Source: a virus. From it: a stretch of 35,110 nt of DNA. Both the position numbers and the translations under genes were made by a program. The stretch is from the IMG/VR virus record IMGVR_UViG_3300043413_000144, positions 1-35,110 of that record; one strand, given 5' to 3'. Below, one piece after another: positions 3,528 to 8,039 of the stretch (positions are counted from its first letter, which is position 1; the number at the start of each line of letters is the position of its first letter). The notes under the pieces are model-generated. The model ran no database searches. It saw nothing but the letters and a program-made list of their open reading frames with translations, and was not told where the DNA came from.

Positions 3528-4183
3528 GCTGCATCCTCAACAGGACCCACAGCACACGGCATGATGATGGCTTTGGCGCCAGCGTAGTGGCGGCTCTGCA
3601 GATCGACCTCGATAGCCGTTTTTGCACCGCGCAGGTTAACGGCGCATTGCGGGTATGGGCTGCCGAGCTCTTTACATGCTTTGGCAACGCGAGCGCAGAA
3701 GTCGAAGTTGATCCCGATGCGGTCGGTAGGGATGGCCTCGCCAGTTGGCACAACACGCTCCCAGTCAGGGAACTTGCCATCAATCTTGTGGAAGAAGGCG
3801 CATTGCTGGTGGCCCTGACCATCAAGAACAGCGGCCGCTGTCGGTGGTACATCCTCAAACTCGCCGGTGATGCGGTTTCTCACCTTCATGTTGAATGGTG
3901 TCACCTCAACGCAGCGCGCTACACCGATGTTGCTCTCATCGTCATAAAAAAGGTCGAGGTTGTGAGCCTTAGCCGGGATCTTGCCTTTGATGGCAATAAT
4001 CATCTGCTCATCAGGGCGCAGGTCTGACTCGTATGGTGAGACGAACATCACATGACCATCGGTAGCGACGATGTGTGATTTGGTGATCATGATGCCGTTC
4101 AGGTAGTAGCGCACATCATTCTTGGCCTGAAACAGCATGGCGGCCTTGACCAGTGCGGCAGGTACGGTGGCGATGTGTTTCAT
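3524..4183 (-). CDS. Sliding-clamp (DnaN-like) homologue, two domains
   Basis: This 219-residue protein resembles the second and third domains of the bacterial beta clamp. YYLNGIMITKSHIVATDGHVMFV corresponds to the ATDGHRLA motif of domain 2, KIDGKFPDWERVVP corresponds to the VDGRFPDYRRVLP segment, and AKAIIMPCAVG corresponds to the C-terminal YVVMPMRL strand. Domain 1 of the usual 366-residue protein is missing. A two-domain clamp would need to form a trimer to close a ring, as T4 gp45 does, or could act as a decoy or loader-binding protein. I chose ATG at 4183, behind GGGGATGCAGC. It overlaps the DUF4406 gene by 4 bp. Confidence 0.82.
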   Translation of the reverse strand: MKHIATVPAALVKAAMLFQAKNDVRYYLNGIMITKSHIVATDGHVMFVSPYESDLRPDEQMIIAIKGKIPAKAHNLDLFYDDESNIGVARCVEVTPFNMKVRNRITGEFEDVPPTAAAVLDGQGHQQCAFFHKIDGKFPDWERVVPTGEAIPTDRIGINFDFCARVAKACKELGSPYPQCAVNLRGAKTAIEVDLQSRHYAGAKAIIMPCAVGPVEDAA

Positions 4184-4521
4184 GCTGCATCCCCTGTGTT
4201 TTCCGGATACCAGACAAAGCCATCTTCGGCTTGGCGGATGACCTTGCCGCACTTCATGGCGAGGTTGAATTCGGCGGTGGCGCCTTGGGAGTTAATCCAG
4301 GCAGGCAGCATGATTACCTCATCGGCCATCATCACCATGGGGCAGCAAATCTGCATGTATTGCTGCTGGGTTAGGCCGTCCGGCAGGGTTGCCGGGTTGA
4401 GTACGACGTGGCCTTTTTGCTGCTGGTGGAGCGCTTCGGTGTTGAAGGCAGGGCGGTTGTATTCCGGCAGGCCAGACATTGGCCCTGCGATGTAGACGAT
4501 TTTGCGTTGTTGGTTCGACAT
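4180..4521 (-). CDS. DUF4406 protein, deoxyribosyltransferase-like fold
   Basis: This 113-residue protein opens KIVYIAGPMSGLPEYNRPAF, the hallmark of DUF4406, which is related to nucleoside 2-deoxyribosyltransferases. YMQICCPMVMMADEVIMLPAW and SQGATAEFNLAM follow, matching the conserved active-site region of the superfamily. A role in nucleotide metabolism or base handling during phage replication is possible, but no substrate is known for this family. It is the first gene of the leftward early operon, 26 nt after the predicted transcription start, with GGGA before ATG at 4521. Confidence 0.88.
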   Translation of the reverse strand: MSNQQRKIVYIAGPMSGLPEYNRPAFNTEALHQQQKGHVVLNPATLPDGLTQQQYMQICCPMVMMADEVIMLPAWINSQGATAEFNLAMKCGKVIRQAEDGFVWYPENTGDAA

Positions 4522-4553
4522 GGTTCATCCCGTTTACTGGTGTATCTGGGATA

Positions 4554-4582
4554 AAAATACGATATGTATTTGGATTGGTCAA
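4554..4582 (-). promoter_or_regulatory. Leftward early promoter (PL-like)
   Basis: Read on the minus strand, TTGACC (4577-4582) and TATTTT (4554-4559) are separated by 17 bp, a good sigma70 arrangement. Transcription would start near 4547 and run into the DUF4406 gene. Both hexamers overlap repressor operators, so CI binding should shut the promoter off. Confidence 0.75.
4556..4570. promoter_or_regulatory. Repressor operator OL1
   Basis: AATACGATATGTATT, a dyad of AATAC and GTATT arms around five bases. It covers the -10 hexamer of the leftward promoter and matches the operators in the CI-Cro intergenic region, so it is inferred to bind CI and/or Cro. Confidence 0.75.
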
Positions 4583-4595
4583 TACGATTTGTATT
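4581..4595. promoter_or_regulatory. Repressor operator OL2
   Basis: AATACGATTTGTATT, the same dyad with one centre base changed, 25 bp from OL1. It touches the -35 hexamer of the leftward promoter. The two sites lie about 2.5 helical turns apart. Confidence 0.72.
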
Positions 4596-4613
4596 TTTTA
4601 GTGCTTGGGCATG

Positions 4614-4639
4614 AAAAAGCCCACCGTACTGGTGGGCTT
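4614..4639 (-). terminator. Intrinsic terminator of the lipoprotein cassette
   Basis: A 9-bp stem (AAGCCCACC at 4617-4625 with GGTGGGCTT at 4631-4639) and a 5-base loop. On the minus strand it is followed by a run of T. It lies just after the stop of the 4670-5140 gene and would keep its transcript from entering the early operon. Confidence 0.85.
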
Positions 4640-4669
4640 ACGTGACTTCCTGCGTTTGCAAGCTGGCAA

Positions 4670-5140
4670 TCAGTTTGAGGATGGATAAATCAGGTGGTAG
4701 CTATTCATCTTGAGTGGGATGCCACAGAAGTCCATCGAGGCTTGCTTGCCACTTATCATCACTGTTGGCTTGCCATCAAGCCGAACATAGAAGTGATGAT
4801 GGTGGCCGCTAACCTTGCTGTCATCCACGTTAAAGTAGATCTCCTTTTGCCATCCTAGATCAGTCCCCCTCCAGTAGGTGTCTATTCCTTCTGCATATGA
4901 AGCGGTCATACCAACAACGGATGATGCTGATACTGGTGGGCAGGCTTCAACAAGATACTTAATTGCCAAAGACTTCTCTTCATCATGCCCTTTTACCCCG
5001 GTACTTTCGAATGCTGGCAATCTCGTCTCTGCTACAACATCTTCACTTTCATGGGGTATTGCTCCGTCTTGCTTACCTGAGTCGCAAGCAGACAGCATAA
5101 AAACCATGCCGCAAAATAGTAAAATTCGTTGTTTATACAT
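4670..5140 (-). CDS. Putative lipoprotein, lysogenic-conversion candidate
   Basis: A 156-residue protein with a lipoprotein signal: basic start MYKQR, hydrophobic core ILLFCGMVFM and lipobox LSAC, giving Cys19 as the lipidated residue. Asp at the next position is the inner-membrane retention signal in enterobacteria, so it may stay in the inner membrane. The mature part is soluble, with three more cysteines and a GHHHHFYVRLDGKP segment. I know no family for it. It has a good AGGTGAT ribosome site and its own terminator, and is more A+T-rich than the phage genes around it. These suggest a gene expressed in the lysogen to alter the host surface or block superinfection. Confidence 0.82.
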   Translation of the reverse strand: MYKQRILLFCGMVFMLSACDSGKQDGAIPHESEDVVAETRLPAFESTGVKGHDEEKSLAIKYLVEACPPVSASSVVGMTASYAEGIDTYWRGTDLGWQKEIYFNVDDSKVSGHHHHFYVRLDGKPTVMISGKQASMDFCGIPLKMNSYHLIYPSSN

Positions 5141-5160
5141 AGATCACCTAAAAGTCAGTG

Positions 5161-5793
5161 TTAACCCTGTTGTTCCACTGTGTGGACTTTCCATTTTGTA
5201 CGGTCTGCGTCATCCCCATCACCGCCAAACTGAATGTCGCAGAACCATCCAGATCGCAGCATTGCCCCGGCTGCATTTTGGCTGTCTACATGTGTTCTTA
5301 TGGCGTATCGCTCATTGCCTTTATACCTGGTCATATCAGGAACAAAAGGGAAGTCGGCAGACGCTGGTGATATGAGCTGTTCGGTGATGATGTTGTTGCA
5401 GATGATGCCAGCCATCACAGACCGATCTGGGATGTCCAGCTCATTGATGTGTTGCAGGAAACGTTCACGGTTATTGTCGCTCTCTGTCTTGCACCATCCG
5501 AACACATCCACCAGCTTGAGATCCTGAGACTTGCTGACGGCCAGATCGCCAATGCAGTTGGTATAACCTGCAACATCCGATTTATCTGCCCCGTAGTAGG
5601 CCATCAGCGTTGGCACGATATCGTCGCGCCGATCTTCCAAATCCTGCTTTCCGAACCATGCCAAGTTTTTATCAGAAAGCTGGCTAATGACATCTACATT
5701 CCCCTTCATTTCATCCCAGCTAAGTGGAGGCTTGTTATCACCGCACCCGAACTGAATAAAAGATAAAGCAATGATTATAAATCTTATTTTCAT
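5161..5793 (-). CDS. Putative lipoprotein, 210 residues
   Basis: MKIRFIIIALSFIQFGCGDNK is a lipoprotein signal with lipobox FGC and lipidated Cys17. The mature region is hydrophilic and contains several cysteines (NCIGDL, WCKTE, IICNN, WFCDI), which could form disulfides in the periplasm. I chose ATG at 5793 because GCGGGG lies at the right distance; a TTG four codons upstream is possible. It is 20 bp from the next lipoprotein gene and the pair is probably co-transcribed. The family is not recognised. Its lower G+C and position between CI and the leftward operon fit a lysogenic-conversion gene. Confidence 0.8.
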   Translation of the reverse strand: MKIRFIIIALSFIQFGCGDNKPPLSWDEMKGNVDVISQLSDKNLAWFGKQDLEDRRDDIVPTLMAYYGADKSDVAGYTNCIGDLAVSKSQDLKLVDVFGWCKTESDNNRERFLQHINELDIPDRSVMAGIICNNIITEQLISPASADFPFVPDMTRYKGNERYAIRTHVDSQNAAGAMLRSGWFCDIQFGGDGDDADRTKWKVHTVEQQG

Positions 5794-5815
5794 ATTACCC
5801 CGCAATCACATTTGT

Positions 5816-6232
5816 TTATTTTAAGGCGTTGATACCAAATCCTATGGCCATTGAAGCAAACGTTCTGACCTTATCCTGATCACCCTCATCAATAGCGGCT
5901 GTTAACCTATAACCAAGCGTCAGCGTGTACGGCAGGGCCATTGATTTGAGAATGGATATCCCTTTGGCAGACAGCACCGCCTCTTTCAGTCCGATATCAT
6001 CCTGCACGTTCGCGTCGATATAGTCCGCCTCTACCAGCCATGACCATGACGCCATGATCAGCGATGCCTCTTCGGTCATCGCCTCAATCCCATCTCCCCT
6101 GTCTTCACTGGCTGATCCATGTACTGTATATTCTTCCAGTGCTATATCTATTGGCATCGGGAAGGCCTGATAGAGCGCGGCAAAGGTCTTACCGGCAATC
6201 ATGTCGAACTGTTCAATATTGGAGGTTGTCAT
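5816..6232 (-). CDS. Hypothetical protein of the lysogeny cassette, 138 residues
   Basis: An acidic, mostly helical protein (MTTSNIEQFDMIAGKTFAALYQAFPMP near the start, then WSWLVEADYI and a C-terminal helix AIGFGINALK). Family not recognised. There is no signal peptide. ATG at 6232 has AGGA upstream, and its start codon overlaps the start of the opposite-strand gene at 6231 (shared CATG), so the two openings are mutually exclusive for initiating ribosomes only at RNA level. It precedes the two lipoprotein genes and may share their transcript. A superinfection-exclusion or host-defence role is possible but not shown. Confidence 0.7.
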   Translation of the reverse strand: MTTSNIEQFDMIAGKTFAALYQAFPMPIDIALEEYTVHGSASEDRGDGIEAMTEEASLIMASWSWLVEADYIDANVQDDIGLKEAVLSAKGISILKSMALPYTLTLGYRLTAAIDEGDQDKVRTFASMAIGFGINALK

Positions 6233-6506
6233 GTCTGATCCTGATGTTAAGGGTAAGGATGAAGTGCAGGGCGGGGCCACGAAACGGGATTTTTTGCGGG
6301 CCGATCTGCTGCGGGTAATGAATTACGGGGTGGTGGGTACTTGGGACAGCCAGCGGTGCGGAGAGTATTTTGCAGCCAGGCTGCCGGAGATTGAGCCAGC
6401 GATGTTGTTTGATGTGCTGGCCGAGGTGATGGTGAGCGGGCCGAAAAAGGCCTACCAGCGTGGGCAGGATGATGCGCTGGCAATGATACGGAAGGCGCTG
6501 AAATAA
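6231..6506 (+). CDS. Hypothetical protein, 91 residues
   Basis: A small helical protein with KRDFLRADLLRVMNYG and WDSQRCGEYFAARLPEIEPAMLFDVLAEVM segments; family not recognised. It reads rightward while its neighbours on both sides read leftward. GGAGG stands 5 bp before ATG at 6231, the strongest start signal nearby. The gene ends 18 bp before the 3' end of cI, so the two converge. Being alone on its strand, it needs its own promoter, which I could not locate inside the overlapping gene. Confidence 0.7.
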   Translation: MSDPDVKGKDEVQGGATKRDFLRADLLRVMNYGVVGTWDSQRCGEYFAARLPEIEPAMLFDVLAEVMVSGPKKAYQRGQDDALAMIRKALK

Positions 6507-6524: not shown

Positions 6525-7187
6525 CTAGCGGCGCCGTCTGCGGCGGCGGTGTTCCACCATGGTGCCGATGATTTGAATGGGCTGGCGATCTGATCGCATG
6601 GTGGCGTAATCGTCATTGAGCGGGGCCAGTTCGAAGATCTCTTTGCCATCTTCGCTGTAGCCGCGGGGGCGGTACTTCTTGAAGGTGGCCTCTTCCTCGC
6701 CGTTCTTGGCCACCACGAAGTCGCCAGGGTGGAGCGGTTCGTCCGGGTCAATCAGCACCAGATCGCCCTCGGTGAATTCCGGCTCCATGGAGTTACCCCG
6801 GATCACGATGGCAAAGGCGCGATCGCCAAGCTCGAGATCGGTGGTGATGTAGGCCATATTGCCATCGCACTCGCGGATCTCGTTCGGTGCTGTCCATACC
6901 CCCGCCTGCACATAGCTGATCACCGGGATCCGGTGAGTGTCAGGCTGGGCTATCTCCATATTCGGTTCGTCGCCGACGATATTGCCATCAACCCCGATAT
7001 TGATGCTCTTGAGATCAAGAACGCTCATGATGTTGAGGATCACGTCCATTGCTGGTTCGCGGCGTTTATTCAACCAGTGCCCGATCGCCCCCTGAGTTAC
7101 CCCCAGCTTTTCAGCTAGTTGCTCCTGAGTGATGCCGAGCTTCTTCATCCGGCTCTTGGCCAGACTGTGCCATGTCTCTTTTTCCAT
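6525..7187 (-). CDS. cI: CI-like repressor, LexA/S24 family
   Basis: A 220-residue lysogeny repressor. Residues about 8-60 are an XRE helix-turn-helix (ITQEQLAEKLGVTQGAIGHWLNKR). The rest is an S24 autoprotease: cleavage site Ala95-Gly96 in YVQAGVW, nucleophile Ser133 in GNSMEP, and catalytic Lys near residue 170 in ATFKKY. RecA-stimulated self-cleavage would induce the prophage after DNA damage. ATG at 7187 has no ribosome site but lies where transcription from the predicted maintenance promoter should start, so the message may be leaderless, as for lambda cI. The protein ends in seven arginines, which is unusual. Confidence 0.95.
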   Translation of the reverse strand: MEKETWHSLAKSRMKKLGITQEQLAEKLGVTQGAIGHWLNKRREPAMDVILNIMSVLDLKSINIGVDGNIVGDEPNMEIAQPDTHRIPVISYVQAGVWTAPNEIRECDGNMAYITTDLELGDRAFAIVIRGNSMEPEFTEGDLVLIDPDEPLHPGDFVVAKNGEEEATFKKYRPRGYSEDGKEIFELAPLNDDYATMRSDRQPIQIIGTMVEHRRRRRRR

Positions 7188-7194
7188 GCTGAAA

Positions 7195-7222
7195 ATATTA
7201 CGTTGCGTATTGTTTTTCTCAA
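7195..7222 (-). promoter_or_regulatory. Repressor-maintenance promoter (PRM-like)
   Basis: On the minus strand TTGAGA (7217-7222) and TAATAT (7195-7200) are 16 bp apart. Initiation seven or eight bases further on would fall at the A of the cI start codon. Operator 7197-7211 covers the -10, so high repressor would switch its own gene off. Confidence 0.55.
7197..7211. promoter_or_regulatory. Repressor operator OR3-like
   Basis: ATTACGTTGCGTATT matches 11 of 15 positions of the OL1 dyad and lies over the predicted cI promoter. Most diverged of the five sites. Confidence 0.5.
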
Positions 7223-7230
7223 CGCACAAA

Positions 7231-7258
7231 TTGTCATGGCTGCAAATCGTGTTATAGT
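7231..7258 (+). promoter_or_regulatory. Rightward early promoter (PR-like)
   Basis: TTGTCA (7231-7236) and TATAGT (7253-7258) are separated by 16 bp. It would transcribe cro, cII and the replication genes. Operators at 7239-7253 and 7256-7270 cover its spacer, -10 and start point. Confidence 0.7.
7239..7253. promoter_or_regulatory. Repressor operator OR2-like
   Basis: On the minus strand AACACGATTTGCAGC, 11 of 15 matches to OL2 with the core ACGATTTG intact. It lies in the spacer of the rightward promoter, 17 bp from the next site. Confidence 0.5.
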
Positions 7259-7270
7259 ACATATCGTATT
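7256..7270. promoter_or_regulatory. Repressor operator OR1-like
   Basis: On the minus strand AATACGATATGTACT, 14 of 15 matches to OL1. It covers the -10 and start point of the rightward promoter, so binding would block cro transcription. Confidence 0.75.
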
Positions 7271-7299
7271 AAGTCACCCCAAAGAGAACGGAGTTGTCG

Positions 7300-7509
7300 A
7301 TGAACAACATCAAGGAACTGCGCGACAAGGCGGGCAAGACGCAGTCCGATTTGGCCGCCGAGCTCGGAATCACTCAGGGGGCGGTTGCTCACTACGAGAA
7401 GAGCCGTCGCAAGCCTGGGTTGGACACCTGCAGAAAGATTGCGTCTGTCATCAATCGCTGGGGGGTGAAGTGCTCCATCAACGATGTATTCCCCCCTGAA
7501 AACTGCTGA
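7300..7509 (+). CDS. cro: Cro-like XRE repressor
   Basis: A 69-residue single-domain XRE helix-turn-helix protein (MNNIKELRDKAGKTQSDLAAELGITQGAVAHYEK). It diverges from cI and shares the GITQ/GVTQ recognition-helix style, so the two probably bind the same operators. Cro-type proteins repress the maintenance promoter and favour lytic growth. GGAG lies 6 bp before ATG at 7300; an in-frame TTG at 7294 abuts that site and is unlikely. It is the first gene of the rightward early operon, followed after 8 bp by cII. Confidence 0.93.
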   Translation: MNNIKELRDKAGKTQSDLAAELGITQGAVAHYEKSRRKPGLDTCRKIASVINRWGVKCSINDVFPPENC

Positions 7510-7517
7510 GAACCATC

Positions 7518-8039
7518 ATGACAGAAGCCAAAAAAACAACCACGAGAGTCAAGCGGGATCACTCCCACGCATCTGACCCTATTGACGCCGCTTATCAGTT
7601 GAGCCGCCGGTACAACATCACCGAGTTGGCCAAGCTGATGGGCAACAAGCGCCCGACCACCTTGAACAACAAGTTCAACCCGCAGTGCGAAGACCATCAC
7701 CTGACCCTGTCTGAGGCTATGGCCGTGACCGAGCTGACCGGTGACAACGCCATTCTGCAAGCCTGGGCGCTGTCTCGTGGTCATGTGCTGGTGGCCCTGC
7801 CGGATAGCACGGTGAGCGAGGAAGAGTTGGCCGACCAGGTGATGACCGTCACCTCAGTGGTGGGGGCGGTGTTCGGTGAGCTGCATCTGGCGCGTCAGGA
7901 CGGGGTGATTGACCCGATCGAGCGTCAGGCAATTACGGCGGCAGTGCATCGCGCCATCAGGGAGCTGTTGAGTTTGGATGAGTCAGTGGCAAGTCAAGTT
8001 CGTTCGTTGCCAGTGGCAGTGCAAGGAGGAGCGAAGTGA
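7518..8039 (+). CDS. CP76-type CII regulatory protein
   Basis: This 173-residue protein matches the phage CII family named after CP76. The conserved part YNITELAKLMGNKRPTTLNNKFNP is followed by HHLTLSEAMAVTELTGDNAILQAWA, a helix-turn-helix with an extra helical region. Its C-terminal third (about residues 105-173) is a helical segment of unknown role. CII proteins act early after infection in the lysis-lysogeny decision. It follows cro by 8 bp, and its stop overlaps the start of the next gene (TGATG). The family assignment is firm; its target promoter is not identified. Confidence 0.9.
   Translation: MTEAKKTTTRVKRDHSHASDPIDAAYQLSRRYNITELAKLMGNKRPTTLNNKFNPQCEDHHLTLSEAMAVTELTGDNAILQAWALSRGHVLVALPDSTVSEEELADQVMTVTSVVGAVFGELHLARQDGVIDPIERQAITAAVHRAIRELLSLDESVASQVRSLPVAVQGGAK

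Follow-up and report, generated by a model that had tools for sequence, protein, structure and literature searches.

A candidate exclusion protein related to Orf97 of coliphage 186 in an exchangeable cargo slot next to a phage cI-type gene

We think that the region next to the cI-type repressor gene of this virus is best explained as a slot for accessory (moron) cargo within the immunity region, in the order cI, a core pair of genes, exchangeable cargo, a terminator, and the left operator. The cargo would be expressed in the lysogen, and one of its proteins, ORF2, would exclude superinfecting phages at the inner membrane. We give this explanation a probability of about 0.5. The cargo probably protects its host against competing viruses, and superinfection exclusion by ORF2 is the reading that we favor, based on the distant homology of ORF2 to Orf97 of coliphage 186. 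Positions refer to the window, which is the whole stretch of DNA that was analysed (35,110 nucleotides), and we compared it to two sibling loci, L006 and L099. The features of the region are:

4670-5140, minus strand: ORF1, a lipoprotein of 156 amino acids with aspartate at position +2
5161-5793, minus strand: ORF2, a predicted Orf97-type envelope protein of 210 amino acids
5816-6232, minus strand: ORF3, 138 amino acids, in phrog_2266, winged-helix-like (from a model of the homologue from L013)
6231-6506, plus strand: the small partner gene of ORF3, 91 amino acids (from an alignment of the partner family)
6525-7262, minus strand: the cI-type repressor, with HTH and S24 peptidase domains
4638-5811, minus strand: the exchangeable cargo slot, with no match to L006 between 5812 and 4637
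4613-4639, minus strand: an intrinsic terminator (from its fold) at the far edge of the slot, kept in both siblings
4556-4595: two probable CI operators, AATACGATATGTATT and AATACGATTTGTATT, before the left early operon, kept in both siblings
7256-7270: a probable CI operator on the repressor side, with one mismatch to the pattern
6230-6233: the CATG in which the divergently read start codons of ORF3 and its partner overlap (from the sequence)
6104-6132, plus strand: a promoter-like site for the small plus-strand gene (such sites are not above chance in the region)
6122-6141: a LexA-like box (TACTGTATATTCTTCCAGTG) inside ORF3, of the form CTG-N10-CAG, matching 15 of 20 positions of the presumed consensus

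As an earlier note on this DNA had stated, three minus-strand genes (ORF1 to ORF3) sit between the S24-type repressor gene and the left early operon; its gene list was incomplete, as the plus-strand gene had been missed. The note was also right that this stretch is richer in A+T: the GC content of the slot is 46.8%, versus 58.8% for the whole window, and all stretches of this length outside the slot have a higher value. The cassette does end in its own terminator, a GCCCACC/GGTGGGC hairpin with a run of T on the minus strand. (A consensus terminator scan missed this hairpin, and the 4 terminator-like sites that it did report are what chance would give, with 4.3 expected.) The repeats that flank the region at 4556-4595 and 7256-7270 are probable CI operators, judging from their sequence. 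The operator-like pattern AATACGATATGTATT has 5 matches in the window with at most 3 mismatches (with one site counted on both strands), versus 0.31 expected, and none of 100 shuffles reached 5. Two of the matches are at 4556-4595, one is at 7256-7270, and one other is at 5774. Within the early operon, the gene at 3524-4183 matches a RusA-like resolvase family (phrog_3007) and also families of DNA sliding clamps. In a DNA search of phage records with positions 1-25000 of the 35110 in the window, the best 20 of 25 records left the cassette uncovered; what they matched was mostly capsid and portal genes plus a methyltransferase.

The siblings show that the cargo is exchanged. L006 is 97.3% identical to the window at the DNA level from cI to position 5812, which is 4 nucleotides past the stop codon of ORF3. 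Identity resumes at position 4637, inside the terminator stem, at 98.3%, and there is no match in between. The slot of L006 encodes an exported-looking protein of 124 residues, a protein of 107 residues, and a zinc-ribbon membrane protein, all of them unrelated to ORF1 or ORF2. The second sibling, L099, is from a genome in the family of Zobellella denitrificans and has two of these three genes. Its match to the window breaks off within ORF3 and reappears over 27 bases at the 3' end of this gene. ORF1 and ORF2 are therefore cargo that can be exchanged, between sharp edges at the stop codon of ORF3 and at the terminator, and ORF3 and its divergent partner are the cI-proximal core. The three genes had been taken for a single cassette, and this has to be revised: in the sibling, ORF3 stays with cI while ORF1 and ORF2 are replaced. 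The proposal that these genes are morons gains support from the swap of cargo at the same site.

Expression of the cargo in the lysogen would be by read-through. We infer that the minus-strand message for CI runs on across ORF3, ORF2, and ORF1 as far as the terminator, and if so, the cargo would be made in the lysogen. Our promoter scan listed no minus-strand sigma-70 promoter between cI and ORF3. (It found 7 promoter-like sites in the region versus 4.3 expected, which is not above chance.) A caveat is that another terminator-like hairpin, at 6451-6468, separates cI from ORF3 and would weaken this read-through; the number of such sites in the region is what chance would give.

Comparisons of protein sequences show that ORF2 belongs, as a distant relative, to the family of Orf97 from coliphage 186 (phrog_3403). 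Among the PHROGs profiles, ORF2 matches phrog_13160 (E = 3.8e-9) and phrog_3403 (E = 1.2e-7, across residues 39-117 only), and ORF2 alone has other weak matches to proteins of Vibrio phage p42 and Microcystis phage MinS1. The link from ORF2 to Orf97 was obtained only through a homologue from L096, P0005, which was found in just 1 of 75 genomes. P0005 is 44% identical to ORF2 and is similar to Orf97 over 81% of its length (E = 1e-11). The phrog_3403 profile matches P0005 with E = 2.6e-24 and Orf97, over its whole length, with E = 2.1e-139. If ORF2 and Orf97 are aligned directly, they are similar over 80 residues (E = 6e-8, for a single comparison), and they are about 18% identical in the full alignment. 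The claim that these genes belong to no known family stands only in part: it fails for ORF2 (phrog_3403 and phrog_13160, and Orf97 itself) and for ORF3 (phrog_2266).

These three PHROGs families have no assigned function. Searches of Pfam, NCBIfam, and PADLOC assigned none of the four proteins, ORF1 to ORF3 and the partner (queried without its first methionine), to a family; a match of ORF2 to DUF3718 falls under the cut-off for that family, and all four proteins are unmatched by PADLOC's profiles for known anti-phage systems. Queries with ORF1 and ORF2 against viral contigs found no relative. (This was separate from the search that gave the viral loci for ORF1 described below.)

A pair of cysteines in the middle domain is invariant in all seven of the aligned family members. 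ORF2, P0005, and the MinS1 protein share a second pair, in the C-terminal domain, that the Orf97 group lacks. In the model of ORF2 (mean pLDDT 76.5, from 4 sequences), the C-terminal domain is NTF2/cystatin-like. Foldseek found no match for this domain at E = 0.001; with VIA, it is similar to an IcmL-like protein (Z = 9.2), a designed cystatin fold (Z = 9.0), and the periplasmic domain of DotI (Z = 8.1). As this is a common fold, we draw no function for ORF2 from it.

We then consider where ORF2 would be located. The earlier note described ORF1 and ORF2 as two lipoproteins. This is correct for ORF1, which has a clean lipobox (LSAC) that agrees with the PROSITE rule and, as was claimed, has an aspartate right after the lipid-bearing cysteine. 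But in ORF2 the corresponding sequence, FIQFGC, is non-canonical and fails the PROSITE rule, which is a point against our best explanation. ORF2 also lacks the two-helix N-terminal membrane anchor of the Orf97 family, and we therefore term it a distant relative with another N-terminus. By a hydropathy threshold, no segment of ORF2 passes, versus two segments in Orf97 and in P0005, whose N-termini have two hydrophobic helices with positive charges between them (the charges were judged by eye). By the same threshold, the family member from VHML has one hydrophobic helix and the member from p42 has three. Among other family N-termini, the one from L109 resembles a signal peptide (by eye), and the one from MinS1 has a lipobox. 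This pattern indicates that the Orf97 family is one domain carried on differing membrane or export N-termini, and we infer that ORF2 is on the periplasmic side of the inner membrane. The idea of a superinfection block at the inner membrane is independently supported for ORF2, by its kinship to Orf97 and by the N-termini of the family, and is not supported for a pair of lipoproteins without a family.

The evidence that links this family to exclusion is from 186. Its GenBank record (U32222.1) states of Orf97 that "expression from plasmid blocks 186 infection." ORF2 on the outer face of the inner membrane may block superinfection, most likely at DNA entry, by analogy with what has been proposed for other exclusion proteins with a membrane anchor (Ltp, SieA, and gp15 of HK97, described below). 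The block that was recorded for 186 may be an effect of overexpression. The low identity of ORF2 to Orf97, the short direct alignment, and the lack of the second cysteine pair in the Orf97 group are further points against exclusion. As for their neighbors, the relatives of ORF2 adjoin a regulator- or repressor-like gene (L096, by eye, and p42), an antirepressor (VHML), an integrase (MinS1), or tum/dinI-like genes (186 and BIS20). One relative, from YenS-P840, is among tail genes, which again argues against exclusion. In E. coli, matches to Orf97 are present in 39 of 5,426 genomes, and 38 of these cover at least 80% of its length.

ORF1 would be the second envelope protein of the cargo, either as a helper or as an independent factor. 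We found homologues of ORF1 in 2 of 75 genomes and in five viral loci, two of which (L112 and L116) are, by their neighbors, the same places as the two genome hits. These homologues look exported and adjoin GemA-, Mor-, or lysozyme-like genes of Mu-like phages (by eye). ORF1 had no match among the phage records. Nothing connects these homologues with exclusion.

If ORF1 and ORF2 are not active in the quiet lysogen, they might act in the lytic or SOS phase and keep competitors out after induction. According to the record of 186, Orf97 follows tum under the LexA-controlled promoter p95, in an SOS operon, which counts against exclusion in the lysogen. The neighbors of ORF1's relatives in Mu-like phages and the LexA-like box inside ORF3 also suit action after induction. 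However, the promoter-like site that overlaps that box points away from ORF2 and ORF1, and the terminator separates the slot from the left operon. We consider action in the lytic or SOS phase to be possible but doubtful.

We think it unlikely that the cargo instead alters the envelope or the fitness of the host in a way that is unrelated to phage entry, so that the block noted for 186 would be a side effect of making a membrane protein from a plasmid. It is true that nothing links ORF1 to exclusion, that the PHROGs families of ORF2 have no known function, and that our literature search found no paper that studies Orf97. (PMC5322425, in the excerpts available, names Orf97 once, together with tum, and the passages searched in PMC8538670 and PMC7067206 do not mention it.) But the recorded block concerned infection by 186 itself, and in the records examined, the family is mostly beside genes for the control of lysogeny. 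Exclusion by ORF2 in the lysogen remains our favored reading.

Turning to the core pair, ORF3 matches phrog_2266 with E = 1.5e-23 (residues 3-136 align to positions 2-141 of 144 in the profile); it had no match among genome contigs. A model of the homologue from L013 is winged-helix-like (pLDDT 79.6). Foldseek's best hit for this model had E = 0.1, with none at 0.001 or better. The best Z score was 7.8, with MarR and CymR entries at about 6, and 200 of 1,000 chains scored at least 5 and none at least 8.

The start codons of ORF3 and of its plus-strand partner overlap as CATG. Of 31 viral loci, 27 show this overlap together with a homologous partner, and 20 of these 27 have the P2-type version. 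(L017 is counted for its second copy only; L010, L015, L016, and L037 lack the pair with the overlap.) The pair with CATG is also found in Salmonella phage FSLSP004, in Escherichia phage Midge, in Arsenophonus and Salmonella plasmid records, and in several genomes. Matches to the pair from Midge are present in 94 of 5,426 E. coli genomes, with 56 over at least 80% of the length. In L101, the start codons abut as CATATG, and a partner profile that was built without L101 recovers its partner with E = 5.7e-12. In the Pseudomonadaceae, phrog_2266 matches 180 of 248 genomes, mostly weakly among the matches listed, and just 1 of the 30 loci examined (L057) has the partner. Given the four exceptions among the 31 viral loci, the other 29 Pseudomonadaceae loci, and L101, CATG is not a universal feature of phrog_2266. 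A literature search on overlapping start codons in phages found no paper.

Both genes of the pair look to be coding. Relative to L006, dN and dS are 0.005 and 0.032 for the partner and 0.013 and 0.102 for ORF3; relative to L099, they are 0.57 and 0.97 for the partner. Also, the ribosome-binding site of the partner, which lies within codons of phrog_2266, is stronger than under synonymous recoding (combined p = 2.6e-6 across 14 representatives, which is optimistic because these lineages are related). The signal for phrog_2266's own ribosome-binding site is weak (p = 0.03).

We also noticed several relatives of these genes. A weak chromosomal relative of phrog_2266 in Pseudomonadaceae (L106, 6640-7065) is beside an aminotransferase-like gene (by eye). 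Second copies of the partner, on the same strand as the first, are near the pair in L009 (1752-1997) and L007 (4622-4837). In L017, a weak partner-like match (7225-7968, E = 7.6e-5) is in the reading frame of a P-loop-like protein, and two other partners are similar to the end of phrog_3787, a family of 242 residues.

LexA-like boxes were scored against what we take to be the LexA consensus. In 400 kb of simulated sequence at each of two compositions, no site scored as well as the box in ORF3, which overlaps the -10 element of the promoter-like site that reads towards the partner. The CTG-N10-CAG of the box is retained in both siblings; the box as a whole is kept in L006 and is weaker in L099, at the same place (one mismatch in the core and 12/20 overall). 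As a general feature of the pair, the box was ruled out: across 11 loci, L006 (which has the window's site) was best and the others had at most 12/20. Among 5 larger loci, only L099 has a box at the same place; L105 has a 16/20 site about 3.5 kb away. In this lineage alone, the box may bring the partner under SOS control.

ORF3 and its partner would probably set the expression of the slot. Tentatively, and with low confidence, we propose that they are an undescribed control module that stands ahead of exchangeable anti-phage cargo in temperate phages of unrelated types and switches it. The start codons of the two genes overlap, and each ribosome-binding site would lie within the coding sequence of the other gene. 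Here, with the LexA-like box, DNA damage would free the partner's strand for a transcript that runs towards the 3' end of cI and is antisense to the beginning of ORF3. This antisense transcription would shut the cargo off as the phage is induced.

We compared this to the genes that follow phrog_2266 elsewhere. Where the partner is present, the next gene on the same strand encodes Fic in FSLSP004 and L031 (and, by eye, in L029), GmrSD in L036, and putAbiC in L100, which speaks for our best explanation. Copies of phrog_2266 without an intact partner are followed by SIR2 (L040 and, by eye, L041) or by a match to PDC-M14A (L061). Other next genes are an integrase (L101), are of recombination type by eye (L065 and L066), or have no recognised type (L064 and L108). 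Defense cargo is not universal behind phrog_2266: most of the 54 rows lack a credible next gene on the same strand, and this scarcity is a point against our best explanation. In L024, an AAA_15 ATPase that matches several defense models (4067-5368) is on the partner's side of the pair. In one record, phrog_2266 and its partner are between gpA- and gpQ-type genes, a locus of P2-like phages that is described as an anti-phage hotspot in the portion of PMC9122126 available; in two P2-like phages they are beside a replication gene, and the Arsenophonus pair is elsewhere. It is quite improbable that the core genes act by themselves as a toxin-antitoxin or abortive-infection pair and that the downstream cargo is incidental, because, even though two small genes with locked start codons and these positions in P2-like phages would suit such a pair, the homologue of ORF3 models as winged-helix-like and phrog_2266 lacks the partner in 29 of 30 Pseudomonadaceae loci, which is odd for half of such a pair.

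Among known systems, Orf97 of 186 is like ORF2 in having a middle domain with the invariant cysteine pair and a GWC motif, a related C-terminal domain, and a predicted location in the envelope. It differs in that it has two predicted helices, whereas ORF2 has a short lipobox-like start (and the two share only about 18% identity), and in that it is in an SOS operon, whereas ORF2 is behind cI and ORF3. In phage lambda, the accessory genes rexAB lie between cI and the left operator and are read in the same direction as cI. The slot has the same relative place, but ORF1 and ORF2 are predicted envelope proteins, and ORF3 and a gene on the opposite strand lie in between. The exclusion lipoproteins of the Ltp type, as described in part of PMC3952083 for Streptococcus phage TP-J34, resemble what is predicted for this cargo: a protein held by a lipid or membrane anchor outside the cytoplasmic membrane and encoded in a temperate phage's lysogeny module. 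Their hosts are Gram-positive, and the Pfam search gave no Ltp hit. According to excerpts of PMC10883804, SieA of P22 and gp15 of HK97 are inner-membrane exclusion proteins that are proposed to act at DNA entry. ORF2 is likened to them by description only, for this proposed site, and differs in that its main part is predicted to be periplasmic. Finally, the hotspot of P2-like phages (again from part of PMC9122126) has swappable cargo and, in that one record, phrog_2266 with its partner, but the slot in the window is in the cI region of another type of phage.

Overall, what was an anonymous lipoprotein cassette becomes a testable claim about the little-studied envelope family of Orf97 from 186. 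Its members may act in exclusion, and phages may bring them to the periplasm by means of different anchors. And the pair with CATG would be a marker for finding slots for prophage cargo beyond the hotspots that have been described in P2 and P4.
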